DNA of 35,068 bases from Polaromonas sp. (lineage in GTDB: Bacteria; Pseudomonadota; Gammaproteobacteria; Burkholderiales; Burkholderiaceae_C): the NCBI RefSeq assembly GCF_018780625.1, contig NZ_JADMJK010000090.1, positions 1 through 35,068 on the forward strand, in the 5' to 3' direction. A model generated the notes under the pieces. That model did no database searches. It was given only the letters and a program-made list of their open reading frames with translations, and had not been told where the DNA came from. Both the position numbers and the translations under genes were made by a program. Below, in pieces: positions 3,462-6,920 of this stretch. Each line of letters begins with the position of its first letter. The first letter of the stretch is position 1.

Positions 3462-4511
3462 TCAGGCCTTGAAAAATTGGCGCATCGCGGCTGCAGCCTG
3501 GTCAATGCCCGCCTCGTCCACATCCAGGTGCGTGACAAAGCGCAGCCGGTACAGGCCGGTGGCCTGGATGCCCTGCTCGGCCAGGTGGGGCAGCAGGCCC
3601 GCCGACTTCGCCTTGGCAGCACCGCTCAGGTCCACGAACACGATGTTGGTCTGCGGCACCTCGACCTGCACGCCTTCAATTCCCGCCAGGCTGCCGGCCA
3701 GGCGCTGGGCCAAGGCATGGTCTTGCGCCAGCCGCTCGACATGGTGGTCCAGCGCATGCGAGGCCGCCGCCGCCAGCATGCCGGCCTGGCGCATGCCGCC
3801 GCCGGCCATCTTGCGGATGCGGTGGGCGCGTGCAATGAAGCCCTGCGAGCCGCACAGCGCCGAGCCAATCGGCGCGCCGAGGCCCTTGCTGAAGCAGACC
3901 GAGACACTGTCAAAACAGCCGGCTATGCGCGCGGCCTCGGTGAAGGCGTCGCTGCCGGTTTGCGCCGCCTGCGCCACCGCCGCATTGAACAGGCGCGCGC
4001 CGTCCAGATGCCGGCTCAGGCCTTTGGCTTTTGCCAGTTGCGTGGCCTGCTGCAGATAGTCAAACGGCAGCAGCTTGCCGCCCAGCGTGTTTTCAAGCGC
4101 CAGCAGGCGCGTACGGGCGAAATGCGCGTCGTCGGGCTTGATCGCGGCTTCAATGTCAGCGAGGGCCAGCGTGCCGTCCGCCTGGTGGTTCAAGGGCTGC
4201 GGCTGCACGCTGCCCAGCACCGCCGCGCCGCCGCCTTCCCAGCGGTAGCAGTGCGCCATCTGGCCGACAAGGTATTCGTCGCCGCGCTGGCAATGCGCCA
4301 GGATGGCGCAGAGGTTGCTCTGCGTGCCGGTGGGCATGAACAGCGCGGCTTCGAAGCCGAGCATAGCGGCGATCTTGTCCTGCAGCGCATTGACGCTGGG
4401 GTCGTCGCCAAACACGTCGTCGCCCAGCGGGGCCGCCAGCATGGCCGCGCGCATGGCGGCGGTCGGCTGGGTCACCGTGTCGCTTCGCAGATCAACAGTT
4501 TTATGAATCAT
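3462..4511 (-). CDS. ltaE: Low-specificity L-threonine aldolase
   Basis: PLP enzyme that splits threonine or allo-threonine into glycine and acetaldehyde. The 349-aa protein has [10 protein letters not shown] at the N-terminus, [10 protein letters not shown] (168-177) and [14 protein letters not shown] with PLP lysine K209. The usual ENTHN-type segment reads [10 protein letters not shown]. The ATG at 4511 has a strong GGAGG at 5-nt spacing that lies inside a copy of a dispersed repeat (see 4508-4564). It is an unusual member of a trp operon, placed between trpG and trpD. No sequence feature shows why. A related PLP amino-acid lyase cannot be excluded. Confidence 0.9.
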
Positions 4512-4567: not shown

Positions 4568-5140
4568 TCACGCCTGCTGCGTCAGGAAGTTTTTCAGCAT
4601 CGCGTGGCCGTGCTCGGTCAGTATCGACTCGGGGTGAAATTGCACGCCCTGAATCGGCAGCTCTTTGTGGCGCACGCCCATGATCTCGCCGTCGTCGGTC
4701 CAGGCCGTGACGGCCAGCACCTCGGGGCAGGATGCGCGTTCGATCGCCAGCGAGTGGTAGCGGTTGACGGTGAATTGCCGGGGCAGTCCGGCAAACACAC
4801 CCTCTTGCGTGGTGGTGATCACGCTGGTCTTGCCGTGCATCAGTTGCTGCGCCCGCACAATCGTGCCGCCGAACGCCGCGCCTATGGCCTGGTGGCCAAG
4901 GCAGACACCCAGAATCGGCAGCTTGCCGGCAAAGTGCTGGATCGCCGCCACCGAAATACCGGCCTCGGCGGGCGAGCACGGGCCGGGCGATACCACCAGC
5001 CGGTCTGGCGCGCGCGCGGCAATCTCGGCCAGCGTGATCTCGTCGTTGCGGAACACCTCGACCTCGGCCCCCAACTCGCCAAAGTACTGGACGATGTTGT
5101 AGGTAAAGCTGTCGTAGTTGTCGATCATCAAGAGCTTCAT
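4568..5140 (-). CDS. trpG: Anthranilate synthase component II (glutamine amidotransferase)
   Basis: Supplies ammonia from glutamine to TrpE. The same family also serves PabB in folate synthesis. The 190-aa class I amidotransferase has GVCLGHQ with nucleophile C80, and HPES with H169 and E171 completing the triad. The ATG is 3 nt after the trpE stop. Its GGAG Shine-Dalgarno overlaps the last trpE codons (CTGGAGTAAGCCATG), so the two subunits are translationally coupled. Confidence 0.96.
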
Positions 5141-5143
5141 GGC

Positions 5144-6643
5144 TTACTCCAGTCCTTCTTCCACCAGCTCGCTGGCGCGCAGCAAGGCGCGCGCCTTGGC
5201 TTCGGTTTCTTTCCATTCCAGCTCGGGCACAGAATCGGCCACCACACCGGCAGCCGCCTGCACATACAGCGTGCCGTCCTTGATGATGCCGGTGCGAATC
5301 GCAATCGCCACATCCATGTCGCCCGCATAGCTGAGGTAGCCGCAGGCACCGCCGTACAGCCCGCGCTTGGTCGGCTCCAGCTGGTCAATCATCTCCATGG
5401 CGTGCACCTTGGGCGCGCCGGTCAGCGTGCCGGCCGGGAAGGTGGCTTTCAGCACGTCCATGCTGGTCATGCCGTCGAGCAAAATCCCCTCGACGTTGCT
5501 GACGATGTGCATGACATGGCTGTAGCGCTCGACCGAAAAGGCTTCTGTGACCTTCACCGTGCCGGTCTTGGCAATGCGGCCAATGTCATTGCGCGCCAGG
5601 TCAATCAGCATGACGTGCTCGGCGCGCTCCTTGGGGTCGTTGATCAGTTCCTGCTCGGCCGCCCTGTCGGCTTCTGGCGACGAGGCGCGCGGCCGGGTGC
5701 CGGCCAGCGGTCGGATGGTGATTTTTTGCCCTTCTTCCACCTGCTCCTGGCGCACCAGGATTTCGGGCGACGCGCCGACCACATGGAAATCCCCAAAATG
5801 GTAGTAGTACATATAGGGCGACGGATTCAGCGAGCGCAGCGCGCGGTACAGACTCAGCGGCGACTCGGTGTAGCGTTTTTTGATGCGCTGGCCGACCTGC
5901 ACCTGCATGAAGTCGCCCGCTTCAATCAGCCGCTTGGCGCGCTCCACGGCGGCAATGTAGTCGGCCTTGGCAAAGTCGCGCTCGGCCGGGTGGCCCTGGC
6001 TCGGCTTGACCACGGGCGCGCTGACCGAGTACCTGAGCTGCTCCTTGAGTTCGCGCAGGCGCTTTTTGGCGTTGGCATAGGCCTCGGGCAGCGCCGGGTC
6101 GGCATACACAATCAAATACAGCTTGCCCGACAGGTTGTCGATCACGGCCAGTTCTTCGCACTGCAGCAGCAAGATGTCGGGGCAGCCCAGCGTGTCGGGC
6201 GGGCAGCTGGCTTCCAGCTTTTTCTCGATGTAGCGCACCGTGTCGTAGCCAAAGTAGCCGGCCAGTCCGCCGCAAAAGCGCGGCAGGCCAGGCCGCAGCG
6301 CGACCTTGAAGCGTTTTTGGTAGTCGCTGATGAAGTCGAGCGGGTTGCGCGCCGAGGTTTCAACCACGCGCCCGTCGGTCACCACCTCGGTCCGCATGTC
6401 GGCGCCAAAGCCCGAAGCGCGCACCAGCGTGCGGGCCGGCAGGCCAATGAAGCTGTAGCGGCCAAAGCGCTCGCCACCGACCACGGATTCGAGCAGGAAA
6501 CTGAACTTTCCGCCGTCCTTGGAGTGCGCCAGTTTCAGGTAAAGCGACAGCGGGGTTTCAAGGTCGGCAAAGGCCTCGGCCAGCAGCGGGATGCGGTTGT
6601 AGCCTTGCGCCGCGAGACTTTTAAATTCGAGTTCAGAGATCAC
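5144..6643 (-). CDS. trpE: Anthranilate synthase component I
   Basis: Converts chorismate to anthranilate with ammonia from TrpG. The 499-aa protein has an N-terminal regulatory part with SFLLESV (the region that binds feedback tryptophan in this family). The chorismate-binding domain shows FMQVQVGQRI, RPLAGTRPR, LIDLARNDIGR and FPAGTLTGAPK. The start is GTG at 6643, with GAAGGA 6 nt upstream. It is the first structural gene of trpE-G-ltaE-D-C-ung. A 260-nt leader with attenuator features precedes it, suggesting control both at enzyme and transcript level. Confidence 0.96.
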   Translation of the reverse strand: MISELEFKSLAAQGYNRIPLLAEAFADLETPLSLYLKLAHSKDGGKFSFLLESVVGGERFGRYSFIGLPARTLVRASGFGADMRTEVVTDGRVVETSARNPLDFISDYQKRFKVALRPGLPRFCGGLAGYFGYDTVRYIEKKLEASCPPDTLGCPDILLLQCEELAVIDNLSGKLYLIVYADPALPEAYANAKKRLRELKEQLRYSVSAPVVKPSQGHPAERDFAKADYIAAVERAKRLIEAGDFMQVQVGQRIKKRYTESPLSLYRALRSLNPSPYMYYYHFGDFHVVGASPEILVRQEQVEEGQKITIRPLAGTRPRASSPEADRAAEQELINDPKERAEHVMLIDLARNDIGRIAKTGTVKVTEAFSVERYSHVMHIVSNVEGILLDGMTSMDVLKATFPAGTLTGAPKVHAMEMIDQLEPTKRGLYGGACGYLSYAGDMDVAIAIRTGIIKDGTLYVQAAAGVVADSVPELEWKETEAKARALLRASELVEEGLE

Positions 6644-6762
6644 GGTAAGTCCTTCATCAGAAGACGCTGCGCATCAAAAAACGCCGCCTTCTGTCATTCA
6701 AAACACCCCGAGGTCCGGGGCCGGGAATGCTCTTGCGTGGCGCAGGAGCGCATCAATTCAGC

Positions 6763-6786
6763 AAAAAGCAGGCTGCGGGGCCATGC
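6763..6786 (-). terminator. Candidate trp attenuator (terminator hairpin + T5)
   Basis: Reverse strand: GCA-T-GGC, loop CCCGCA, GCCTGC, then TTTTT. That is a 6-bp GC-rich stem with one bulged T and a T run. It lies 32 nt after the stop of the Trp-rich leader ORF and ~120 nt before trpE. The upstream CGTGC (6789-6785), which overlaps its 5' arm by two bases, can instead pair with GCACG (6828-6824). This offers an antiterminator. Confidence 0.5.
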
Positions 6787-6818
6787 ACGGGCTCAAAACA
6801 ATGAGCGATACGGGCGCC

Positions 6819-6902
6819 TCAGGCGTGCCGGGTGGAACAGGAACGCCAAAGCCAGGCTCCCCGGCCGGCGCAGGCTGTTTGGTTGATGCGATGAATGAAC
6901 AT
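6819..6902 (-). CDS. trpL: Candidate tryptophan leader peptide (27 aa)
   Basis: ATG at 6902 to TGA at 6821-6819, ending in ..AWLWRSCSTRHA. Trp codons at positions 17 and 19 (TGG CTT TGG) sit inside the left arm of a possible stem: GCCT..GGCGT pairing with ACGCC..AGGC. A ribosome stalled there would open that stem, freeing the right arm to form the antiterminator. This is the layout of classical trp attenuation. There is no Shine-Dalgarno. The ATG lies only 9 nt after a predicted -10, so translation may be nearly leaderless. Prediction from sequence alone. Confidence 0.5.
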   Translation of the reverse strand: MFIHRINQTACAGRGAWLWRSCSTRHA

Positions 6903-6911
6903 GTAGGCCAA

Positions 6912-6920
6912 AGTGTAGCA
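6912..6920 (-). promoter_or_regulatory. Predicted extended -10 of the trp operon
   Basis: Reverse strand TGC-TACACT (6920-6912) matches an extended -10 (TGn then TAnnnT). No good -35 is found at 16-18 nt. Transcription would start near 6905, giving a ~260-nt leader before trpE. Confidence 0.4.

Follow-up and report, generated by a model that had tools for sequence, protein, structure and literature searches.

A conserved Trp-codon leader ahead of trpE in Comamonadaceae, very probably attenuator-like, with a distal element complementary to its start

The region ahead of trpE in a Polaromonas sp. raises the question of whether a short open reading frame (ORF) with two Trp codons serves as the sensor of an attenuator, and how such a device would be read from an mRNA whose start codon is not preceded by a Shine-Dalgarno (SD) sequence. 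The stretch of DNA analysed in this study, referred to as the window, comprises 35,068 nucleotides, and all coordinates given below refer to its minus strand (-). In the window, trpE, coding for anthranilate synthase component I, occupies positions 5144–6643 with a GTG start at 6643 and is defined by the Pfam domains PF04715 (Anth_synt_I_N) and PF00425 (Chorismate_bind). The gene is preceded by the SD sequence GAAGGA (6655–6650) and adjoined by trpG (4568–5140), a glutamine amidotransferase (PF00117), which is followed on the same strand by a Beta_elim_lyase gene (PF01212; threonine aldolase type) at 3462–4511, and three closely spaced tRNA genes are located at 168–577. Neither TrpR (PF01371) nor TRAP (PF02081) was detected in the genome assembly, whose completeness is estimated at 89%.

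The leader ORF trpL (6902–6819) encodes the peptide MFIHRINQTACAGRGAWLWRSCSTRHA in 27 codons. It starts with an ATG (6902–6900), contains the Trp-Leu-Trp control codons TGG-CTT-TGG (6854–6846) and terminates in a TGA (6821–6819) about 175 bases ahead of the GTG of trpE, in agreement with a first-pass annotation, which had described this ORF upstream of trpE. In a single genome, 27 codons with two Trp codons would be unremarkable and might reflect a chance ORF in an intergenic region, a view that has found no support after comparison with related sequences. For this comparison, a search of 41 genomes placed trpE in 40 of them, and 80 named genome loci were added from Polaromonas, Rhodoferax, Acidovorax, Hydrogenophaga, Ramlibacter, Variovorax, Comamonas, Limnohabitans and others. 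A first set of 109 trpE upstream regions, later complemented by 50 extracted regions, yielded 147 distinct leaders. An A-W-x-W motif with an in-frame ATG is present in 94 of the 109 regions of the first set, 94 of these loci keep the GAWxWR core together with the ATG, and the core is retained across the 147 distinct Comamonadaceae leaders, with MFIHRI..TG.SDRGAWPWR as family consensus peptide. Both TGG codons are found in all of 86 distinct leader cores, which were selected by the pattern TGG-N3-TGG, and the same pattern occurs in 94 of the 109 upstream regions, which were not preselected for it. The alignment of Comamonadaceae trpE upstream regions, proposed as a check in the first-pass annotation, thus shows the Trp codons to be kept in every leader found. 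A census with a sequence model built on promoter and leader core, which replaced the overly loose pattern GGRGCNTGGNNNTGGCG, recovered the element, almost always as a single copy, from 81 of the 87 genomes of the genus, and a sample of 200 order-level genomes showed it to be confined to the family except for one weak partial match elsewhere. The ORF is real and widely conserved in Comamonadaceae, and its in-frame conservation, fixed Trp codons, start codon and promoter spacing in 147 distinct sequences refute a chance origin, to which we assign a negligible probability. In other Burkholderiales families, different short Trp-rich ORFs precede trpE (L017, L021, L026, L027, L029), with motifs such as AWLWRRW, WRMWRWRRG, WLEWRWRR and SWRWRV and some without an SD, which are possibly independent or diverged trp leaders.

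The second question concerns the start of the transcript and its translation. An extended -10 element TGCTACACT (6920–6912), the promoter of trpL-trpE, ends 9 nt ahead of the ATG in the window, as had been noted in the first inspection of the sequence, and a sigma-70 scan returned no -35/-10 pair, consistent with an extended -10 promoter. In all 147 distinct leaders, the sequence TA(C/A)ACT (TACACT or TAAACT) ends 5–11 nt before the ATG, with modal distances of 9 and 6 nt, and TGn precedes this -10 in 130 of them. An SD-like motif ahead of the ATG is found in just one leader, and its absence in the window and in a total of 146 out of 147 sequences accords with the initial description of trpL as lacking an SD. 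Since RNA polymerase normally initiates about seven bases past the -10, the 5' UTR would comprise 0 to about 4 nt. From this narrow spacing and the missing SD we infer a leaderless or nearly leaderless start of trpL that is conserved in the family. Such a start had initially been regarded as unusual; the conservation of the architecture without an SD supports it, but the precedent of trpL in Sinorhizobium meliloti, to which we return below, makes it less exceptional than assumed.

The conservation of the leader is not restricted to its peptide. In a core reaching across the Trp codons (ACAG...CCGGGGAGCCTGGCTTTGGCG, 6878–6844), synonymous sites are nearly fixed, as illustrated by the usage of CGG (99% in leader cores vs 13% in trpE), GGA (92% vs 4%), ACA (82% vs 5%), GGT (78% vs 15%) and of ATT at codon 3 (77% vs 21%). 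The CGG-GGA-GCC preceding the Trp codons is fixed at synonymous sites too, and RNA, beyond peptide sequence, is therefore also under selection. A possible cause, judged from the sequence, is provided by local hairpins spotted by eye (GGU..ACC, CCGGGG..CCCUGG and UGGC-GNRA-GCCA), and another might be the SD-like GGGGAG located about eight bases ahead of the second Trp codon, where it might confer extra ribosome pausing. The segment CCGGGGA (6864–6858), just ahead of the Trp codons, shows hardly any variation at synonymous sites in the leaders of the family.

Features reminiscent of known attenuators are also found in the predicted secondary structure. A 1:2-like stem GGCGT/ACGCC (6847–6822) extends from the second Trp codon to the stop codon and shows 87% of cells paired in 42 Polaromonas-type sequences. 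The whole stem including GCCT/AGGC, which had been proposed to enclose the Trp codons, does exist, with 86% of cells paired in the same sequences compared to at most 57% in slid controls, although with two-sided changes at one pair, most of the pairing reflects sequence conservation. Further downstream, a terminator scan and the alignment revealed a terminator-like hairpin CCCCG-GACCT-CGGGG followed by TGTTTTG (6721–6705, with TGTTTTGAATGA), about 60 nt ahead of trpE and outside of the region 6763–6920 covered by the first-pass annotation. In the 42 Polaromonas-type sequences, 94.1% of its cells are paired compared to 31–61% in slid controls, three pairs carry two-sided changes, and a shuffle control is just moderately exceeded. 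The stem of this hairpin varies widely in the genus and its place just before a UGAAUGA element is fixed. Together with its U-rich tail, it has the form of an intrinsic terminator between trpL and trpE in the window and in most Polaromonas-type relatives, and outside of Polaromonas-type genomes, for example in Variovorax, it often lacks the U-run. The GC hairpin with T5 that had originally been assigned as terminator (about 6783–6763) has not withstood comparison, as its T5 is found in 5 of 42 aligned relatives and the same sequence only in the nearest. Just upstream of the terminator-like hairpin, another one, termed hairpin X (GATGCGCTCxTGC/GCAAGAGCATC, 6754–6727), recurs in the predictions for many Polaromonas-type sequences, where its stems differ, as in GCCCGTGC/GCACGGGC in L145 and GATGCCcTCCC/GGGaGGCATC in L112, and in the window's own short fold other pairing is preferred in this region. 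A hairpin CAGAAG...CTTCTG (6693–6658), with stems that vary in relatives, is located between the UGAAUGA element and the SD of trpE. In loci of Variovorax, Ramlibacter and Acidovorax (for instance L075, L108 and L041), a strong hairpin, for example GCACGGCG/CGCCGTGC, begins within a few bases downstream of the leader stop, so that its formation would be blocked by a ribosome terminating there.

How the position of the ribosome might be communicated to the terminator is less evident. The 5-bp antiterminator GCACG/CGTGC of the first-pass annotation is not conserved, with all five pairs present in 11 of 39 sequences and the helix broken (CGCGC) in the nearest relative L122. Two other candidates were rejected: reasoning from sequence and alignment, a pairing of the leader CCGGGG with the terminator arm has the wrong sign, because a stalled ribosome would cover CCGGGG, and a 2:3-type helix between stop region and hairpin X (GGCGC/GCGCT) is 83% paired with a covariation that is no better than in a slid control. 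The influence of the ribosome was further investigated by partition function calculations on the RNA up to the U-run, with the ribosome stalled either at the Trp codons or located at the stop. For the RNA of the window, the hairpin is predicted to form with a probability of 0.03 when the ribosome stalls and of 0.97 when it is located at the stop. However, among the 42 sequences, its formation is lower in the stalled case in 6 and the reverse is found in 9, and a looser test on 122 sequences gave 19 and 15 cases, respectively. The window's own sequence thus folds like a switch but its relatives do not, and equilibrium folding of these 42 and 122 relatives has revealed neither a consistent direction that would define a conserved ribosome-position switch nor a conserved antiterminator or mutually exclusive structure. 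Equilibrium folding ignores kinetics and can miss co-transcriptional switches, so that a conserved antiterminator may still exist. The combination of a rigidly conserved Trp-codon core with no conserved antiterminator found poses a real puzzle.

A distinct feature of the locus is the UGAAUGA(AC) element (6700–6694, family consensus UGAAUGAAC) residing directly 3' of the hairpin. It stood out by its conservation at a stage when the complementarity had not been recognised, and folding later showed its pairing with the leader. Its 10-base consensus scores at least 8 out of 10 in 94 of 149 regions compared to about 1.5% of shuffled regions. The complement of the element lies within the first ~25 nt of the leader, where UCAUUCA at nt 5–11 (6898–6892, codons 2–4) matches UGAAUGA, and the family consensus of nt 3–11, GUUCAUUCA, is the exact reverse complement of UGAAUGAAC. 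A helix score of at least 7 bp, with G.U counted as half, is reached in 62% of 106 distinct pairs, compared to 17% for dinucleotide-shuffled leaders and 0–7% when the remaining parts of the leader are used. A second leader site at nt 17–25 (UCAUUCAAA) pairs with UUUGAAUGA in Polaromonas-type genomes, with 88% of cells paired vs 28–56% in slid controls, and in L188, L191 and L192, which have lost the first leader site, the sequence of the element is UGAAUGAU, matching AUCAUUCA. Chance does not account for this complementarity; it likely reflects an RNA helix, and a DNA inverted repeat is possible. Raw duplex energies were abandoned as a test for the long-range helix since they are swamped by GC-rich matches, and the idea that UGAAUGA opens another small ORF coupled to trpE was dismissed in light of its distribution over the three frames (27/17/15), which is not conserved. 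In the Variovorax loci L080 and L075, the leader sequence GTTCGTTC has a further complement in GAACGAA(C/T) next to the SD of trpE, which could be chance.

In the explanation that we consider probable, trpL is the leader of the trpEG transcript, its mRNA is leaderless or nearly so, and attenuation is mediated by the ribosome with the terminator hairpin as output. In its favour are the conserved Trp-codon peptide directly ahead of trpE, the rigid spacing of -10 and ATG, the synonymous constraint across the control codons, the hairpin with its two-sided changes, the fold of the window's own RNA, the failure to detect TrpR or TRAP in the assembly and the precedent of S. meliloti. Against it are the lack of a consistent effect of ribosome position on the hairpin among relatives, the hairpins with no U-run outside of Polaromonas-type genomes and the failure to find an antiterminator. 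The two parts of the explanation differ in their strength: a role of trpL in sensing Trp appears highly likely, and an intrinsic terminator as its output is probable. What stands of the attenuation proposed in the first-pass annotation is thus the Trp-codon leader for trpE, supported by its conservation, but not the antiterminator and terminator that it had named. In the presumed sequence of events, transcription would begin at the AUG or no more than about four bases from it and trpL would be translated from this mRNA. With scarce tRNA-Trp, the ribosome would stall on UGG-N-UGG, and with plentiful tRNA-Trp it would proceed to the stop codon, its position setting whether RNA polymerase passes the hairpin at 6721–6705 into trpE. 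In read-through transcripts, UGAAUGA may base-pair with the very beginning of the leader and thereby silence its start codon. This last step amounts to a built-in off switch, where, after read-through past the hairpin, UGAAUGAAC would pair with bases 3–11 (or about 17–25) of the same mRNA, a proposal that we regard as tentative and on balance doubtful. If true, the start codon would be closed to 70S ribosomes and the 5' end protected, and only the first rounds of leader translation would meter each trpE message.

Part of the evidence could also be accommodated by other mechanisms. Stalling on trpL might sense Trp and act via Rho-dependent termination, mRNA stability or the translation of trpE, as would agree with the failure to find a conserved antiterminator or ribosome-position switch and with the hairpins that lack a U-run in several genera. 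We view this as rather unlikely, given the conserved position of the hairpin relative to trpE and UGAAUGA, the U-rich tail in the window and most close relatives, and the potential of co-transcriptional switches to escape equilibrium folding. An action of the terminated leader RNA or peptide in trans might explain part of the conservation, as the peptide is conserved beyond its Trp residues (MFIH, RGAWxWR) and the start is leaderless as in S. meliloti (PMC7298713), but much of the conservation is located at synonymous sites and hence not simply a matter of peptide sequence, which makes this improbable. Finally, GTTCATTCA at +3 and the downstream TGAATGAAC might constitute inverted-repeat sites in the DNA for a DNA-binding regulator. 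Outside of Polaromonas-type genomes, G.U is found about as often as A.C (26 vs 25 combinations), a balance that lends no weight to RNA pairing, and the UGAAUGA element persists in L189, L193 and L194 despite a lost leader 5' site. Own pairs beat swapped pairs modestly, but the swap effect is likewise seen for leader slices 8 and 16, which together with the neutral G.U to A.C ratio speaks against taking covariation as proof of the long-range helix. Conversely, the spacing between the two sites varies widely, the partner appears to shift between two leader sites with 7–10 bp kept (TGAATGAT with ATCATTCA in L188, L191 and L192), and in L155 a G-C replaces an A-U pair where its relative L153 has a G.U pair. 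We thus consider a DNA site very improbable and retain attenuation by the translating ribosome as the favoured explanation.

Collectively, our analysis describes what is very probably a trp attenuator-like leader, of a kind that is known and whose leaderless start has a precedent in trpL of S. meliloti. It places a Trp-sensing leader in the Comamonadaceae, for which we found no description of a trp leader in the open literature; the surveys Vitreschak 2004 and Merino 2008 were outside the scope of this search and a prior prediction is possible. No Rfam family, including the Trp_leader covariance model, matched the leader region even at E-values up to 5. The locus shares with the enterobacterial trp attenuator (Rfam Trp_leader) a short Trp-codon ORF, a stem around the control codons and stop and a hairpin with a U-rich tail ahead of trpE, and it differs in the missing SD, the absence of TrpR from the assembly and of a conserved antiterminator among the structures found. 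In E. coli, translation of the trp leader is reportedly self-inhibited in read-through transcripts, according to work of the Yanofsky laboratory in the 1980s. The off switch considered here would resemble this self-inhibition in the idea of a distal leader segment pairing with the leader translation start, but it would act on a start without an SD and with a partner located 3' of the terminator-like hairpin. For such switches, we found no report of a complementarity between 5' end and distal element in the literature that we could read. The closest relationship is to trpL-trpE(G) of S. meliloti (Bae and Crawford 1990, cited in PMC7298713), for which ribosome-mediated attenuation with a leaderless trpL and action of rnTrpL and peTrpL in trans have been reported (PMC7298713). 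As far as that account describes them, both systems share a Trp-codon leader ORF of trpE(G), a terminator between the two and the lack of transcriptional repression of trpE(G) in the genome. For S. meliloti, the reported 5' end of the attenuator RNA coincides with the trpL ATG (PMC7298713), whereas the leaderless start is here deduced from sequence. The described S. meliloti peptide contains 14 residues with consecutive Trp codons, compared to 27 residues of different sequence with a W-x-W motif in Comamonadaceae, and with respect to that account, the RNA-constrained core and the element complementary to the mRNA 5' end are features of the leader studied here. The conserved UGAAUGA(AC) element 3' of the hairpin, complementary to the leader start, is new with respect to the literature covered here. 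The Comamonadaceae leader would thus be a second case, beside S. meliloti, where attenuation seems to run on leaderless mRNA. Its 147 distinct sequences make it an evolutionarily rich one, and its conserved complementarity between 5' end and distal element makes the regulation of leaderless initiation directly testable.
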